From Actinomycetes bacterium (GTDB lineage: Bacteria; Actinomycetota; Acidimicrobiia; Acidimicrobiales; Palsa-688), in NCBI GenBank assembly GCA_021827225.1, contig JAKAXG010000216.1:1-7195 (forward strand): DNA of 7,195 nucleotides, written 5' to 3'. The notes under the pieces are model-generated. The model saw only the letters and a list, made by a program, of their open reading frames with translations. It was not told where the DNA came from and did not search any database. Every line of letters starts with the position of its first letter. Positions within the stretch are counted from its first letter, which is position 1. Position numbers and translations under genes: made by a program. Positions 1-6,892 of the stretch are shown here, in pieces.

Positions 1-630
1 CGGGGTCGAAGCCCGCTGCTGGATCCGGCGCTGTTCGCCCTCGGGGCGCTACGGGCCGGCCTGCTCACCCAGCTGGCCTTCTGGTGCCAGCAGGCGGCCT
101 CCTATCTGGTGCTGGCCCTGTTCCTGCAGCAGGGCCGGGGGTTGTCGCCGCTGGGGTCGGGAGCCGTGTTCAGCGTCCTGGCCGCAGGCTACCTGGCCAC
201 GTCCCTCCGGGCGCCGGCCTGGACGCTCCGGTACGGCCGGACGGTGGTCACCACCGGGGCCCTGACCGCCGCCGCCGGCAACGGGCTGCTGTGGGCGGTC
301 GTGGCCCACTGGGGTACGGGCGGCGGACCGGCCGCGCTGTTTCCCGGCCTGTTCCTGGTGGGGGCGGGCCAGGGGCTGTGCATAACCCCGCTGACCACCA
401 CGGTGCTGTCGTACGCCGAGCCGGTCACGGCCGGGGCGGTGTCGGGTGCACTGTCCACCATGCAGCAGGTGGGCAACTCGGTCGGGGTGGCCGTCATCGG
501 TGTGCTGTTCTTCGACGGGGTGACCCACGGATACGGGGCGGCCTTCCAGCGCAGCGCCGCCGCCATGCTGGTCCTCCTGGCCGGCGTGGCCGTTCTGTCC
601 CGGCTGCTGCCACAGCGGACGGCCCCTTGA
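1..630 (+). CDS. MFS drug exporter, DHA2/EmrB type, C-terminal part (5' cut by window)
   Basis: The frame is open from the first base to a TGA at 628-630, giving 209 residues; the start lies outside the window. It looks like the last five or so membrane segments of a 14-helix, proton-driven drug exporter of the inner membrane. Visible family signs are a cytoplasmic loop ending in SPLLDPALF near residues 4-12, and a motif-C-like stretch, GAGQGLCITPLTT, near 121-133. The AGAVSGAL and QQVGNSVGVAVIGVLFF segments follow near 145-171 and are typical of EmrB/QacA-like transporters. Full members run about 450-500 residues, so roughly half is missing. A GTG at 109 is internal and should not be taken as the start. 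A MerR regulator follows 33 bases later on the same strand, which supports an efflux role. The substrate cannot be read from sequence. Confidence 0.9.
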   Translation, partial: RGRSPLLDPALFALGALRAGLLTQLAFWCQQAASYLVLALFLQQGRGLSPLGSGAVFSVLAAGYLATSLRAPAWTLRYGRTVVTTGALTAAAGNGLLWAVVAHWGTGGGPAALFPGLFLVGAGQGLCITPLTTTVLSYAEPVTAGAVSGALSTMQQVGNSVGVAVIGVLFFDGVTHGYGAAFQRSAAAMLVLLAGVAVLSRLLPQRTAP

Positions 631-663: not shown

Positions 664-1491
664 ATGCCAGCACTGCTCTCCATCGGCGACTTCTCCCGGA
701 TGACCCATCTGAGTGTCAAGGCCCTGCGGCACTACCACGAGCTGGGGCTGCTGGAGCCGGTCCGGATAGACGACACGAGCGGTTACCGCTACTACGAGCC
801 GGAACAGGTCCCCGTAGCCCAGGTCATCCGGCGCTTCCGCGATCTCGGCATGCCCCTCGAGCAGGTCAAAGCGGTGCTGGAGGCGCCCGACGTGCCGACC
901 CGTAACAAGGCGATCCTGGTCCACCTCCAGGGCATGCAGGCCGAGCTGGCGCGAACCCAGGCGACCGTGGCGGGCCTGCAGGCGCTGCTCGAGGGTCCTC
1001 CTCGACGACTGCCTGTCCTGTTCCGGACCATCCCAGCCGTCGATGCCGTCGCCGTCCGGGAGGTGGTGGACGTGGACGACTTCGCCCCGTGGTGGACCGG
1101 CGTCTTCGACGAGCTGTACCGAACCATCGCCGGCGCCGGCGCTGAGCCGGCAGGGCCGGCGGGGGCGCTCTACCCGGGAGAGTTCTTCGAGCTGGACCGG
1201 GCCGAGGTGACCGCGTTCGTGCCCGTGGAACCGCCGGTCGGCTCCCCGGGCCCCGCCGGGAGGGTGAAGCGCCTGCAGATCCCGGGAGGCCAGTTCGCGG
1301 TGGCTCTGCACGAGGGCCCGCTCGACGACATAGACCACGCCTACGGTGCCCTGGGGACGGTCGTCGCCGAGCGGGCGGTCGGCGTCGACGGGCCGATCCG
1401 CGAGTACTACCTGGTCAGCTTCGGGGACACCGAAGACCAGGACCGTCACCGAACCGAGGTGTGCTGGCCGGTGTTCCAGGTCGCCCCATGA
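664..1491 (+). CDS. MerR-family multidrug-type regulator with GyrI-like ligand domain (BmrR/TipAL type)
   Basis: The 275-residue protein has three parts. An N-terminal MerR winged helix-turn-helix covers about residues 5-75; LSIGDFSRMTHLSVKALRHY and GYRYYEP are diagnostic. A dimerisation coiled coil spans about 76-110. A GyrI-like/SOUL-type effector-binding domain covers about 115-275 and ends in the family's TE-x-x-x-PV motif (E265, PV 269-270). Such proteins bind hydrophobic cationic drugs and untwist the overlong spacer of their target promoter. The ATG at 664 is chosen because the MerR motif begins at once and a MerR-type -10 box sits 6 bases upstream. There is no Shine-Dalgarno at normal distance, which agrees with a leaderless mRNA. 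The upstream exporter is a likely second target (inference). The order regulator-after-exporter is less usual than divergent pairs. Confidence 0.93.
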   Translation: MPALLSIGDFSRMTHLSVKALRHYHELGLLEPVRIDDTSGYRYYEPEQVPVAQVIRRFRDLGMPLEQVKAVLEAPDVPTRNKAILVHLQGMQAELARTQATVAGLQALLEGPPRRLPVLFRTIPAVDAVAVREVVDVDDFAPWWTGVFDELYRTIAGAGAEPAGPAGALYPGEFFELDRAEVTAFVPVEPPVGSPGPAGRVKRLQIPGGQFAVALHEGPLDDIDHAYGALGTVVAERAVGVDGPIREYYLVSFGDTEDQDRHRTEVCWPVFQVAP

Positions 1492-1524: not shown

Positions 1525-2595
1525 CTACCACGATGGCGAGAACGGCAGGCCGGCGGTCAGCATCCTCACCACCACTCCGGCGTGGTCGGAGGGCCACCTG
1601 GGCTCGGAGGTCCCGATCGGGTTGACTCCGGTGCGCCACGCCGAGAGGGGGATGACGAGGCCCTTGCCGTAGATATGGTCGATGCGCTGGTCGAGGGTGC
1701 CGCCCGTCAGATCAGCGTTGCGGCAGCAGGTGTAGCCGGGGGCGCCGGGCCTGGCGGCTGTCCACTCGTCGATGTAGCGGGCGGCCGTGAACGTGTCGGC
1801 GGCGGCGTCGTAACCGGCGATAGCCGGATCGGAGTTCATGTCCCCGGCGAGCACCGTCGGGAGCCGGGAACCGGCGAGCACCGACACCAGCTGGGCGGCC
1901 TGCCGGCCGGCCACGGTGGGGTCGTACGCCTCGAGGTGGGTGTCGACGAACCTGGTCACGCCCAGGCCCAGTCGCATGTCGGCCCACACGTAGCCGCGGG
2001 TGAAGGTGACCGGGCCGAGGATGGGAGTGCTGTAGGTGAGCTGGTCGGCGAAATGCCCCCCGCCGGTGGCCAGGACCTTCGTGCCGGTGCGTACGAGGAT
2101 CACGTCGCGGTCTATGAACCTGCCGGGAAGGGCGGCGGGCAGGGACGCGGAGTCGAAGTTGTCCTGGGTCACCGCCACCTTGTAGCGGTCTCCGAGCGCC
2201 GCCAGCCGGTCGAGTATCAGGGAGGTGAAGTCGTAGCTGACAGTCGCCGTCCCGGGGAGGGAGATGGTCCAGTCGGCCGCTTCCTGGAGCGCCACCACAT
2301 CCGGCCTGGCGTGGTCGATCTCCTCGGCGACGGCCGCCATCCGGGCGGGCGGGTTGGACTGTTCCACCTTGGAGAGCACGCTGATGACGGCGCTTCCGAG
2401 ATCTCCGGAAGGACTTATGAGCGGTGTCAGGTCGGCGCCGAGGTAGAGGTTGCGGGTCATCACCGACTCGGTGATCGGTGGCCGGTGGGCGGGTGGACCG
2501 GCGGCCGATGCCCGGCCGGGCCCCACGGCCACGGTGGCGGCCACCGCCACCACGGCGGAGAGTGCTGTAGCGAACCTGCGCAACGGCGTAGTCAT
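1525..2595 (-). CDS. Secreted endonuclease/exonuclease/phosphatase (EEP) family protein
   Basis: The 356-residue protein is a metal-dependent phosphoesterase of the DNase I-like superfamily, acting outside the cell. A signal peptide occupies residues 1-32: Arg residues at 6-7, a hydrophobic core at 9-24 and an ASA-A cleavage site near 29-32. EEP motifs follow in order: RNLYLG with N49, DVVALQE with catalytic E105, DTHLEA with H220, LAGDMNSD with D252 and N254, RIDHIYG with D306, and WPSDH with D337/H338. The active site therefore looks complete. The frame stays open upstream to 2757, but the ATG at 2595 is preferred. It starts the signal peptide and has GGAGGA (2605-2610) 9 bases ahead. The only cysteines are adjacent, C290-C291. 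The substrate (nucleic acid, lipid head group or inositol phosphate) cannot be told. The N-terminal RR-F is a poor Tat motif, so Sec export is more likely. Confidence 0.92.
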   Translation of the reverse strand: MTTPLRRFATALSAVVAVAATVAVGPGRASAAGPPAHRPPITESVMTRNLYLGADLTPLISPSGDLGSAVISVLSKVEQSNPPARMAAVAEEIDHARPDVVALQEAADWTISLPGTATVSYDFTSLILDRLAALGDRYKVAVTQDNFDSASLPAALPGRFIDRDVILVRTGTKVLATGGGHFADQLTYSTPILGPVTFTRGYVWADMRLGLGVTRFVDTHLEAYDPTVAGRQAAQLVSVLAGSRLPTVLAGDMNSDPAIAGYDAAADTFTAARYIDEWTAARPGAPGYTCCRNADLTGGTLDQRIDHIYGKGLVIPLSAWRTGVNPIGTSEPRWPSDHAGVVVRMLTAGLPFSPSW

Positions 2596-2597
2596 AA

Positions 2598-2622
2598 CCG
2601 GGAATCCTCCAGGGTTTCCCGG
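2598..2622 (-). promoter_or_regulatory. 5'UTR hairpin presenting the EEP ribosome binding site in its loop
   Basis: On the minus-strand mRNA, CCGGGAA (from 2622) and TTCCCGG (to 2598) form a perfect 7-base stem around an 11-base loop. The loop holds the GGAGGA Shine-Dalgarno, and the stem ends 2 bases before the ATG. A competing stem, GGGTT with AACCC, uses part of the same upstream arm. The pairing is seen directly; any control of translation is inference. Confidence 0.4.
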
Positions 2623-2644
2623 AACCCGCCCAGAGTCGCACGTC
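2621..2644 (+). promoter_or_regulatory. Weak candidate ECF-sigma promoter for the PNPOx-like gene
   Basis: GGAAC (2621-2625) and CGTC (2641-2644) are 15 bases apart, resembling the GGAAC/CGTC boxes of many ECF sigma factors. The start point would be near 2650, about 100 bases before the 14-codon ORF. Both boxes are short and could occur by chance in GC-rich DNA. No better promoter is visible for this gene in the 2596-2787 gap. Confidence 0.22.
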
Positions 2645-2746
2645 CCATCTTGCGCCGGTCTGGAGCTGCCGCCCCGCCCGGGTGGGCGACGGTGGCCGGG
2701 CTCCAGGAACTGCGTAAGGGGCCCCGGCGCTGGGAAGGCCCCGGGT

Positions 2747-2791
2747 ATGAGCACCATCCAACCCCACTACCGGGGAGAGGTCGCCGAGTGA
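2747..2791 (+). CDS. Possible 14-codon upstream ORF (leader peptide) overlapping the PNPOx-like gene
   Basis: An ATG at 2747 opens a 14-codon frame, MSTIQPHYRGEVAE, ending at TGA 2789-2791. GGGAAGG (2732-2738) lies 8 bases upstream at good spacing. The stop overlaps the GTG start of the next gene as GTGA, the usual sign of translational coupling. The downstream gene's own Shine-Dalgarno lies inside this frame. The peptide has no recognised family, no attenuator-type codon run and no membrane segment. It may be a chance frame. Confidence 0.3.
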   Translation: MSTIQPHYRGEVAE

Positions 2792-4751: not shown

Positions 4752-5339
4752 TCACGGTTCCAGGCTGAACGGGGGGTAGCGATCGGTGAGCAGACCGACA
4801 TACGCCTGGACCCGCAGGCCGTAGCGGTACACATCGATCAGGAAGCTCCGTGCCCCGTGCGGGTACTCGCCGCGGATCAGCACCGCGAAGAACCCGGCCA
4901 CCACCGCCAGAGCCGCCGCCAGCCACAGGACGGACAGGACCAGATAGTGGGGGACGGCCACGAACCACTTGTAGAGCGGAGCCCAACGGGCCAGTCGCTC
5001 CGGATACTCGATGCTGAGCGTGGTGTGGGGCTCCATCCGGTCGTCCTCCGCGGACATCTCGAAGTCGAACGGCGGGTAGTCCTCGTGGAGGAACAGCGCG
5101 TAGCTCACCGCTCGCCATTCGTAGCGGTAGCACATGGTGATGGCGTCGAAGATGGGCCGCGGTATCTGCTCGGTGAACAACACGGTGACCAGGCTGATCA
5201 GGGTCAGCACGTTGCGCAGCGAGCCCAGCGCGCCGGCAACCATCAACTGCGGAATGGCCAGCACCCACTGGGCCAATGGCCTCCAGCGGGCGATGTGGTA
5301 GTCGGCCTCGAAATCCAGACGGGCGGGGTAGGGGAGCAC
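4752..5339 (-). CDS. Tandem DUF4389 membrane protein
   Basis: The 195-residue membrane protein consists of two DUF4389 units. Unit 1 covers about residues 4-94 and unit 2 about 112-195. Each has YP-x-RL, RW-x-PL-x-x-W (19-25, 118-125), a pair of membrane helices, a YRY motif (71-73, 171-173) and the hallmark DYPPF/RYPPF (88-91, 188-191). Predicted helices lie at about 24-57 and 123-156, four in all. An acidic linker, SAEDDRMEP (96-104), joins the units. The function of DUF4389 is not known; it is usually a small membrane protein of actinobacteria. The start is GTG at 5339, supported by GGAGGTGG (5346-5353) and by the first YP-x-RL motif following directly. It heads the cluster with the flavodoxin and GAF genes, suggesting a membrane-linked redox role (inference). 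Its promoter was not recognised. Confidence 0.88.
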   Translation of the reverse strand: MLPYPARLDFEADYHIARWRPLAQWVLAIPQLMVAGALGSLRNVLTLISLVTVLFTEQIPRPIFDAITMCYRYEWRAVSYALFLHEDYPPFDFEMSAEDDRMEPHTTLSIEYPERLARWAPLYKWFVAVPHYLVLSVLWLAAALAVVAGFFAVLIRGEYPHGARSFLIDVYRYGLRVQAYVGLLTDRYPPFSLEP

Positions 5340-5452: not shown

Positions 5453-6256
5453 ATGAGGCAAACGGGTCGTCATCGCCGGTCCTGGCTCACCGCCGGAGGA
5501 GCGCTTCGGGTGCCGCAGGTGGGGGTGATGTTCTGGATCATCAAGGGGTTGTCGACCGCGATGGGCGAGGCGACCTCCGACTACCTGGTGCACTCCATGC
5601 TCCCCCAGCTGGCGGTTCTACTCGGTTTCGTGGCGTTCGTCGCCGCTCTGGTGGTGCAACTCAGGCAGGGCCGCTACGTGGCCTGGTCGTACTGGCTGGC
5701 GGTGGCCATGGTGGGCGTGTTCGGGACGATGGCGGCGGACGTGCTCCACGTGGCCCTGCACGTGCCCTACACGGCGTCCGCCGCTCTCTACGCCGTCGTC
5801 CTGGCCGCGGTGTTCTTCGCCTGGTGGGCGACGGAGGGGACGCTGTCGATCCACAGCATCGACACCCCCCGTCGCGAGATGTTCTACTGGGCGGCGGTCG
5901 CGGCCACCTTCGCCATGGGCACGGCGCTGGGTGACTTCACCGCCTACGACCTGCATCTGGGCTACTTCCCGTCGGCCGTCCTGTTCGCGGCGGTCATCGC
6001 CGTTCCGGCGGCCGGCTTCGCCTGGCTCCGCCGGTACGCGGTGCTGTTCTTCTGGTGGGCGTACGTCGTGACCCGGCCGCTGGGCGCCTCGCTGGCCGAC
6101 GGGATGGGTAAGCCGAGGGACGTGAGCGGCCTCGGTCTGGGCGACGGTCCCGTGGCGCTGGTTCTGGCCGCTCTCATCGTGATGCTGGTCGGCTACCTGA
6201 CGGTGACGGGGTCGGACGTGCAAGCGGCGCCGGCCCTGGAGACCGAACGCGCCTGA
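5453..6256 (+). CDS. Eight-helix membrane protein, COG4705 type, with fourfold repeat
   Basis: The 267-residue inner-membrane protein resembles the uncharacterised COG4705 family, recalled from its VPQV-x-x-x-FWIIK-x-L-x-T-x-MGE start and the TRPLGASLAD segment. It has about eight membrane helices arranged as four two-helix units (about 20-72, 74-129, 138-193 and 195-251). Each unit begins with the same spaced motif, [FY]W-x9-G-x4-D: W28/G38/D43, W81/G91/D96, W146/G156/D161 and W201/G211/D216. Four aspartates placed alike in the membrane suggest a shared ion- or substrate-binding site, as in a transporter (inference; no activity known to me). The ATG at 5453 is chosen for the leaderless -10 box 7 bases upstream; the first 18 residues are basic and poorly patterned. 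It diverges from the DUF4389 cluster, so shared control is possible, and it converges on DedA with 6 bases between stops. Confidence 0.8.
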   Translation: MRQTGRHRRSWLTAGGALRVPQVGVMFWIIKGLSTAMGEATSDYLVHSMLPQLAVLLGFVAFVAALVVQLRQGRYVAWSYWLAVAMVGVFGTMAADVLHVALHVPYTASAALYAVVLAAVFFAWWATEGTLSIHSIDTPRREMFYWAAVAATFAMGTALGDFTAYDLHLGYFPSAVLFAAVIAVPAAGFAWLRRYAVLFFWWAYVVTRPLGASLADGMGKPRDVSGLGLGDGPVALVLAALIVMLVGYLTVTGSDVQAAPALETERA

Positions 6257-6262
6257 GGGGGT

Positions 6263-6892
6263 TCAACGAAGCGATGAGCAGTCATTGCTCCGGTCGCGTA
6301 TGCGGCGGGTGATCCACCAGGCGATGATGACCACCGCGATCACGGCGATGGCGACGCTCACGTAGGTGAACGCCGACGCCACGCTGTTCCAGTTGGCGGC
6401 CACTGCGTAGCCGACCGCGGCCAGGGCGAACGTCCAGGGCAGGCTCCCGATGAGGGTGTACAGGCTGAAGCGGCCGACGGGCATCTCGGCCACCCCCGCC
6501 GGCAGGCTGACGAAGGTCCGCACCACCGGCAACACCCGGCCGACCAGTACCGCCAGATCCCCCCGGCGGGCGAAGAACGCCTCGGTGCGGTCCAGGTGCT
6601 CCGGGCGGACCAGCAGGTACCGGCCGTAGCGCTCCAGGAGCGGCCGGCCACCTGCCCGGCCGACCCCGTAGGCGATCAGCGCCCCGACCAGGTTGCCCAG
6701 GGCGCCGGCCACTCCTATCCCCAGCAGGCCGACGTGAGCGTGCCCGCTCGCCAGCAGGCCGCCGGCCAGAGCCCCGCCGAAGAGCATGATCACCTCGCTG
6801 GGGATCGGGACGCACGCCGACTCCAGGACCATGAGCACGAACACCGCCACGTAGCCGTGATGGCTGATCTGGGTGGTCAGAAAGTGGGTCAA
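6263..6892 (-). CDS. DedA/VTT-family membrane protein
   Basis: The 209-residue inner-membrane protein belongs to the DedA (VTT/SNARE-associated) family, whose members act in phospholipid flipping and proton-dependent membrane homeostasis. Visible marks are ES-x-x-VPIPSEVIMLFGG (24-40, with E24 and E33) and GNLVGALIAYGVGRAGGRPLLERYG (66-90). Next come FFARRG (106-111) and the hallmark GRVLPVVRTFVSLPAG (118-133) with the two conserved arginines R119 and R125. GSLPWT and GYAVAANW follow (149-168), then a last helix at about 175-194 and a basic tail. The length is normal. The start is a TTG at 6892: no ATG, GTG or TTG occurs in frame for 45 bases upstream, and the next ATG (residue 21) would remove part of the first helix. 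GAGAGG lies only 3 bases before it, short for a Shine-Dalgarno. A TACCGT 9 bases upstream is a weak -10 candidate. Confidence 0.93.
   Translation of the reverse strand: MTHFLTTQISHHGYVAVFVLMVLESACVPIPSEVIMLFGGALAGGLLASGHAHVGLLGIGVAGALGNLVGALIAYGVGRAGGRPLLERYGRYLLVRPEHLDRTEAFFARRGDLAVLVGRVLPVVRTFVSLPAGVAEMPVGRFSLYTLIGSLPWTFALAAVGYAVAANWNSVASAFTYVSVAIAVIAVVIIAWWITRRIRDRSNDCSSLR
6271..6297 (+). terminator. Hairpin just beyond the COG4705-type gene, inside the DedA 3' end
   Basis: GAGCA (6276-6280) and TGCTC (6286-6290) pair around a 5-base loop, and GCGA (6271-6274) pairs with TCGC (6294-6297) across an uneven internal loop. It begins 15 bases after the stop at 6256 and has no T-tract. It could end or protect the plus-strand transcript, but it is also DedA coding sequence. 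Confidence 0.3.

Follow-up and report, generated by a model that had tools for sequence, protein, structure and literature searches.

The locus examined here, a window of 7,195 nucleotides from an Actinomycetes bacterium, raises the question of whether a motif that recurs four times in a predicted 267-residue membrane protein reflects an internally repeated fold and, if so, what role that protein may have in the membrane. The first-pass annotation of this DNA had described an exact fourfold [FY]W-x9-G-x4-D repeat, and the positions are as it claimed: [FYW]W-x9-G-x4-D begins at residues 27, 80, 145 and 200, with no further copies, giving the triplets W28/G38/D43, W81/G91/D96, W146/G156/D161 and W201/G211/D216. 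A chance origin of the pattern was rejected: when the protein was shuffled 200,000 times at constant composition, one motif copy arose in 787 cases, two copies in 3 and three or four copies in none. The units had been put at about 55 residues each; this holds for two of the three W-to-W distances (53 and 55 residues) but not for that between copies 2 and 3 (65 residues). The Pfam model PF03988, "Repeat of Unknown Function (DUF347)", matches the protein as four repeated stretches (E 1.1e-45), scoring 154.1 bits against a curated cut-off of 28.2. It is the sole Pfam family detected at E<=10, a threshold at which the MFS, VTT_dom and DUF368 profiles gave no match, and no NCBIfam model matched at E<=1; NCBI names the family 'COG4705 family protein'. 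We take the PF03988 entry to describe four repeats per protein, each with two transmembrane helices and a conserved Trp, a description that the query fits in its motif, its conservation and its AlphaFold2 model. The fourfold repeat is real, and it is already catalogued as the trait that defines the DUF347 family, hence not new; the earlier reading overlooked both this identity and a metal role already proposed in print.

The W/G/D pattern is a conserved core of the DUF347 family. Three protein searches, in each of which the 8,000 or 7,999 candidates that had the most words in common with the query were scored, gave 7,753, 7,999 and 7,999 matches, and 120 from each were used. Together with the query and a protein translated from a plasmid, these 360 listed matches make a set of 362, which is redundant and clustered round the three queries; in it, strict W-x9-G-x4-D copies number four in 355 proteins and three in the other 7. 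An alignment of 129 chosen homologues, with 27-80% identity to the query, retains W, G and D in every row for repeats 2 to 4, while repeat 1 has W28 in 128 rows (one being gapped), G38 in all 129 and D43 in 127 (Ala in 2). Insertions or deletions between W and D are confined to a single row, in repeat 1. Homologues lacking these positions in most units, which the annotation had named as evidence against its proposal, were not found among the 129 aligned sequences. E39, T92, T157, T207, R208, P209 and E142 are likewise invariant, and K31 and T35 are conserved in at least 90% of rows. The close relatives of the query are mostly from Actinomycetota. The family was detected in 59 of 197 genomes sampled from the class to which the genome with a Kutzneria locus (G001) belongs, and in 52 of these 59 the number of DUF347 matches was a multiple of four, by a hand count that may be low for the larger genomes, in which 32 candidates were scored. 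Among 101 sampled genomes from the phylum of the Desulfosporosinus locus genome (G004), only G004 itself has the family, and no DUF347 match was obtained in 14 control genomes. DUF347 is, in short, a patchy, accessory gene.

The relationship among the four repeats was assessed by profile-profile comparison in global and local modes, each set against 30 controls made by reversal or shuffling. W, G and D fall in register in all six repeat pairs in the global mode, and five of the six pairs outscore every control. Repeats 2 and 3 are the closest pair (E 1.9e-8 global, 4.7e-11 local), followed by repeats 3 and 4 (E 2.8e-5 and 8.9e-7, respectively); the pairs 1-3, 1-4 and 2-4 are weak, yet they exceed all 30 controls in both modes. 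Repeats 1 and 2 score just under the best control (17.7 versus 18.8 local, 13.41 versus 13.47 global). We consider all four units to be homologous because Pfam matches four stretches, as the weak profile pairs would be insufficient alone. Together, the Pfam stretches and the profile comparison support the internal fourfold repetition that had been proposed. The further proposal of two rounds of internal duplication fared less well: it predicts that the pairs 1-3 and 2-4 should be closest, whereas the closest pairs observed are 2-3 and 3-4, and a doubling of a doubled unit is not favoured by these sequence comparisons. The features of the window are collected in the table.

Table. Positions and strands of features in the window, with the basis of each assignment.
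Feature	Positions	Strand	Basis
MFS piece, upstream of the MerR-type gene	109..630	+	
MerR-type regulator with GyrI-like domain	664..1491	+	
Exo_endo_phos-family protein; hydrophobic stretch resembles an export signal	1525..2757	-	export signal by eye
DUF4389 protein, uncharacterised, matched in two stretches; gene divergent from that of DUF347	4752..5339	-	
DUF347 (PF03988) membrane protein gene, COG4705-type, 267 aa	5453..6256	+	translation; Pfam; AlphaFold2
Extent of the four units	about 5504..6217		
Extent of the four motif copies	5531..6100		
Repeat 1, residues 18-74: F27-W28, K31, T35, G38, E39, D43	5504..5674	+	motif, conservation; matched least well by the profiles of the other repeats
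Repeat 2, residues 75-135: Y80-W81, G91, T92, D96	5675..5857	+	motif; best Pfam stretch, residues 80-130; profile alignment
Repeat 3, residues 138-192: Y145-W146, G156, T157, D161	5864..6028	+	motif; nearest profile is repeat 2
Repeat 4, residues 193-255: F200-W201, T207-R208-P209, G211, D216	6029..6217	+	motif; T207, R208 and P209 invariant in 128 rows
DedA/VTT protein	6263..6892	-	VTT_dom, E 3.1e-24; nearest curated model UptA (NF052604), 136 bits, cut-off 250

How the repeats are arranged in the membrane can be approached from the predicted structure. The AlphaFold2 model of the query (pLDDT 93.8, pTM 0.90) has eight helices, at residues 25-48, 51-72, 77-100, 106-128, 139-166, 171-191, 193-219 and 231-252, and the motif always falls in the first of the two helices predicted for a unit. 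The two helices per motif unit anticipated by the annotation are borne out by this model, and the same eight helices are predicted for a distant relative of the MmfC1 type, P0243 (pLDDT 88.9, pTM 0.83). An eight-helix membrane protein with two helices per unit is, therefore, predicted with high confidence. Foldseek detected no PDB fold match at E<=0.001 for either the query or the MmfC1-type model, and a structural comparison with VIA-align gave middling Z scores (best 6.5), which exclude nothing. A solved relative was also sought by sequence; the single match to the query, a bacteriorhodopsin fragment (E 0.048), was rejected, and a profile search gave none. The loops at the Trp ends of the helices carry a mean positive charge of about 9.2 (net about 6.0, excluding the C-terminal tail with a net charge of -0.6), as compared to about 1.8 (net about 0.6) for the loops at the Asp ends. 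Because positive charge is concentrated in the Trp-end loops, the positive-inside rule predicts that the Asp ends are extracytoplasmic. The first helices are more conserved than the second (3.2-3.5 versus 2.4-2.8 bits) and on average less hydrophobic, and so they probably lie inside the bundle. The four Asp residues share one end of helices 1, 3, 5 and 7, pointing 72-129 degrees away from the hydrophobic face and 83-128 degrees away from the most conserved face of their helices; the conservation moment is significant in helix 1 only of these four (p 0.08, 0.11 and 0.23 for helices 3, 5 and 7). By helix-wheel geometry, the Asp side chains are neither lipid-facing nor clearly central.

The annotation had suggested that the four Asp residues could line one site. 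Covariation was examined by a mean-field method (488 sequences, 172 effective at 85%) and by pseudolikelihood (121 effective at 80%, with 100-odd of 150 planned iterations). The covarying pairs join each second (B) helix with the next first (A) helix and also B1 with A3, a contact that recurs as the wrap-around B4-A2. A test of the wrap-around signal was weak, with p values of 0.06, 0.20 and 0.08 for the ten, twenty and forty best pairs and of 0.01-0.09 for the control 1-to-3 pairing. An unconstrained fit of eight helices to the covariation did not converge, and the eight best solutions shown disagreed. A fit with imposed C4 symmetry does converge, with the first helices inside, Asp C-betas 5-7 Å from their neighbours and 8-10 Å apart across the bundle, and the Asp residues pointing partly inward (cosine 0.42-0.74). 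This fit satisfies 64% of 25 and 50% of 40 pairs, with the first-helix radius at its preset lower bound, and it beats eight of eight scrambled controls (energy fraction 0.52 versus 0.28-0.39). The distance between neighbouring Asp residues in those controls ranges from 4.0 to 12.6 Å and is below 7 Å in two of eight. When the wrap-around pairs are omitted the Asp residues are still close (6.0 and 8.5 Å; cosine 0.94), with the radius moving from 5.4 to 11.6 Å. An arrangement of the four Asp residues around one shared site is compatible with these models, conditional on the imposed C4 symmetry.

Published data on this family deal mostly with metals. In the accessible parts of PMC4531530, DUF347 is termed a new potential metal transporter, a metal export-precipitation system is proposed, and operons containing UppP and DUF347 are reported as up-regulated under lead stress, in an organism that is not plain from those parts; Davis 2006 is cited there for metal-specific induction in diatoms. 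The available text of PMC4914505 describes mmfC1 and mmfC2 of Tn6048 as DUF347 genes and reports that an mmf-bearing plasmid alters growth at different levels of Fe and V, together with a plasmid effect on bacitracin. The plasmids of that study are said to carry no resistance to the heavy metals used, and the cassette was read as a metal capture system, opposite in direction to export. As far as the excerpts of these two papers go, both place a UppP or UPP phosphatase next to DUF347. Extracts of a further paper (PMC12029693) state that the mmf cluster, with its two DUF347 genes, is upregulated by Pb and Zn, and that growth with Cd, Co or Zn did not differ between a strain with mmf and one without. 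The mmf papers call the DUF347 proteins 'putative MFS permease'. Enrichment of DUF347 in polar algae is mentioned in the consulted sections of PMC9756366 and PMC6249206, and the portion available of PMC3431237 sets out an export-and-precipitate model for lead based on PbrA and PbrB. The literature searched, partly in the form of excerpts, yielded no study in which a DUF347 protein was assayed directly; no literature was found under the name COG4705, and none among the matches listed joined DUF347 with DedA or undecaprenyl.

The neighbours of the gene in the window itself are of a different kind from those of the mmf cluster. Scanning of the eight other open reading frames gave MFS, MerR/GyrI, Exo_endo_phos, a sub-cut-off Pyridox_ox_2, GAF, Flavodoxin_5, DUF4389 and VTT_dom, and neither a two-component system nor a metal transporter gene was recognised among these eight beside the DUF347 gene. 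An mmf-type cassette, with a UPP phosphatase and a two-component system beside DUF347, was not found in the window. The DedA and DUF347 genes converge, with 6 bases between them; the match of the DedA protein to UptA, an undecaprenyl phosphate transporter, falls below the cut-off of that model. A MerR-type regulator with a GyrI-like domain is a build commoner among sensors of drugs in multidrug responses than among metal sensors. A tblastn search of 80 genome loci of relatives returned no homologue of the DUF4389 protein. A gene annotated as Exo_endo_phos adjoins the DUF347 gene at one Paraburkholderia locus (L101).

Neighbourhoods of relatives were compared in three collections. For the 80 genome loci, the best 80 of 169 by similarity to the query, genes were counted as near when within 3 kb of a DUF347-like open reading frame (loosened motif) and as far-only otherwise; over 466 and 343 kb, respectively, and uncorrected for genome kinship, the near and far-only counts were 14 and 0 for DedA, 3 and 0 for BacA, 4 and 1 for PAP2, 2 and 0 for FetB, 18 and 3 for response regulators and 12 and 3 for kinases. 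A DedA, BacA or PAP2 neighbour occurs at 15 of these loci, with PAP2 and DedA nearly co-located at three, where they may be one fused gene. Counting by tblastn with single queries gave 10 near and 1 far for DedA, 3 and 0 for UppP and 2 and 0 for FetB; five PAP2 or PepSY queries gave none. Among 226 neighbours at the 80 loci there were 7 VTT_dom and 10 kinase domains, and PAP2 was absent from the 25 families shown (of 109 and of 133). The second collection comprised 40 actinomycete loci, one each from 40 of the 59 positive genomes, picked blind to their neighbours; over 244 kb near and 234 kb far, again uncorrected for kinship, response regulators numbered 25 near and 1 far-only, kinases 22 and 0 and FetB 2 and 0, while the lipid-carrier set (DedA, PAP2 and BacA) was near in 8 and far-only in 1, all 8 being on the same strand. 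In a Pfam scan of 110 neighbouring proteins from 36 of these 40 loci (at the other 4 a simple gene caller had overlooked the DUF347 gene), kinase and response-regulator domains came first together with HAMP and PAP2; UPF0014 (FetB) and Zip were among several families found twice each in the 25 of 77 shown. The third consisted of 23 plasmid stretches from several phyla, six taken for interest and 17 for organism spread, with flanks of 6-8 kb; a hand count of the 21 that were annotated found a response regulator or full two-component system in 12, PAP2 or undecaprenyl-diphosphatase in 9, DedA in 1 more and FetB in 3. Two-component systems are the commonest neighbours of DUF347, and lipid-carrier enzymes outnumber metal pumps in the scanned loci. 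Metal genes (FetB, CzcA/CusA, metal P-type ATPases, DmeF, RcnA and ZIP) do occur near some relatives. An iron export permease of the FetB type lies near DUF347 at seven loci (L067, L074, L155, L157, L097, L100 and L112), including ones from Cellulomonas, Deinococcus, Rhizobium and Paenibacillus. DedA, where present near DUF347 relatives, is often close by and on the same strand.

DUF347 probably takes part in a response to metal or cell-envelope stress. Of the roles that we considered, the most likely, though held tentatively, is that the DUF347 protein is a carrier or channel for a divalent metal cation under metal stress. Helices 1, 3, 5 and 7 would form a central bundle, surrounded towards the lipid by the four second helices, and the four Asp residues would together form an acidic ring close to the extracytoplasmic opening of a path also lined by the conserved K31, T35, E39, T92, T157 and R208. 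Under metal stress, a divalent cation of the Zn, Pb or Fe type may thereby be moved across the cytoplasmic membrane. The protein is probably controlled, in many relatives, by the neighbouring two-component system, and in some an adjoining phosphatase could free phosphate outside the cytoplasm so that exported metal is precipitated, as for PbrA/PbrB; these last steps are drawn from relatives because the window gene has DedA as its neighbour and no two-component system. Consistent with a metal carrier are the family and repeat data, the eight-helix models of the query and P0243, the conservation of the first helices, the loop charges, the covarying pairs and the C4 fit above all eight scrambled controls, as well as the induction by Pb and Zn and growth effects of Fe and V seen in the published excerpts and the metal genes near relatives. 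However, the geometry of the Asp ring depends on the imposed symmetry, and the Asp residues are equally close in two of the scrambled controls. The Asp, Gly and Trp residues may instead be determinants of the fold, with Gly packing the first helices, Asp bonding a neighbouring helix or loop and Trp anchoring at the interface, and no shared substrate site. The near-equal invariance of W, G and D across the four units is as expected of packing positions, the Asp residues diverge from the most conserved face, and motif offsets 3, 7 and 18 face the axis of the symmetric fit more directly than Asp does. Nevertheless, all four Asp residues lie at one level, at the outer end, and their C-betas are 5-10 Å apart in the imposed-symmetry models; moreover, placing Asp inside a helix for structural reasons is costly. 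We regard this explanation as rather unlikely.

Other points also count against a metal carrier. The excerpt of PMC12029693 has growth with Cd, Co and Zn unchanged by mmf, that of PMC4914505 finds no heavy-metal resistance and proposes capture, and no metal transporter gene was recognised beside the window copy. K31 and R208 stand beside acids in the most conserved charged set, which does not resemble a plain cation pore, and two-component systems and lipid-carrier enzymes are commoner neighbours than metal pumps. An alternative is that DUF347 serves undecaprenyl phosphate recycling, either by translocating the lipid carrier or by aiding phosphatases or DedA flippases, with metal-bound carrier lipid or envelope damage as the stress that is sensed. 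The lipid-carrier counts in all three collections, the shared strand at the actinomycete loci and the phosphatases described beside DUF347 in the excerpts of PMC4531530 and PMC4914505 favour such a role, and the conserved K31 and R208 could bind phosphate. Yet such a neighbour is present in only 15 of 80 and 8 of 40 loci, in counts uncorrected for genome kinship, sequence kinship to DedA or DUF368 was not seen (Pfam, E<=10), the window DedA gene is convergent, not co-transcribed, and phosphatases fit the metal-phosphate model too. A recycling role appears unlikely, and slightly more doubtful is its fuller form, in which DUF347 would be a further recycling component, a fourfold pseudosymmetric bundle unmatched among solved structures, repeatedly recruited beside three unrelated families (PAP2, BacA and DedA) under metal or envelope-stress control. 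The two-component systems raise the additional possibility that DUF347 transports nothing and is the membrane partner of the adjacent system, where it would sense metal or the condition of the envelope and gate the kinase. The excess of response regulators and kinases near DUF347 in the 40 and 80 loci and the 12 of 21 plasmid stretches agree with such a sensor, but many loci, the window included, have no adjoining two-component system, a transporter under its own two-component system would give the same picture, and the charged residues conserved inside the helices point to a path for a substrate; we consider a sensor improbable, the least probable of these roles. The family spans several bacterial phyla and marine algae, and a proven function was not met in the literature searched, as far as the excerpts extend. 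An eight-helix model with no clear PDB match, a possible outward-facing Asp ring and the link to lipid-carrier and two-component genes lead to two testable ideas, a metal carrier or lipid-carrier recycling.

Comparison with known systems places the query copy as a four-repeat DUF347 member beside a convergent DedA gene. It has the same repeat, motif and two helices per unit as the PF03988/COG4705 family, with no notable difference. MmfC1 and MmfC2 (mmf of Tn6048; Cupriavidus metallidurans, plasmid pHB44) are DUF347 proteins with the same motif, and MmfC1-type sequences, 37-41% identical to the query in 10 rows, share its eight predicted helices; however, the additional mmf genes, for PepSY, a UPP phosphatase, a two-component system and a secreted protein, have no counterpart beside the query gene. 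The Frankia DUF347 proteins, proposed partners of UppP in export-precipitation, are of the same Pfam family and, like most close relatives of the query, from Actinomycetota, but the accessible text of PMC4531530 gives them six helices as opposed to the eight of the present models, and the query copy has no adjoining UppP. PbrA and PbrB of C. metallidurans, as described in the part of the source available, pair a membrane exporter with an undecaprenyl-pyrophosphate phosphatase, as in the proposed scheme; PbrA is a P-type ATPase, whereas the query matches only DUF347 in Pfam. For the undecaprenyl phosphate translocases UptA/DedA and PopT/DUF368, DedA and phosphatase genes recur near DUF347, but the query has no sequence match to VTT_dom or DUF368. 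On an Enterobacter plasmid (L083, 5505-8744), the DUF347 gene lies downstream of mcr-10.1, a lipid A phosphoethanolamine transferase gene, and at another locus (L118) a transferase of similar type is accompanied by a PAP2 gene and a diacylglycerol kinase, all within 6 kb of the DUF347 gene.
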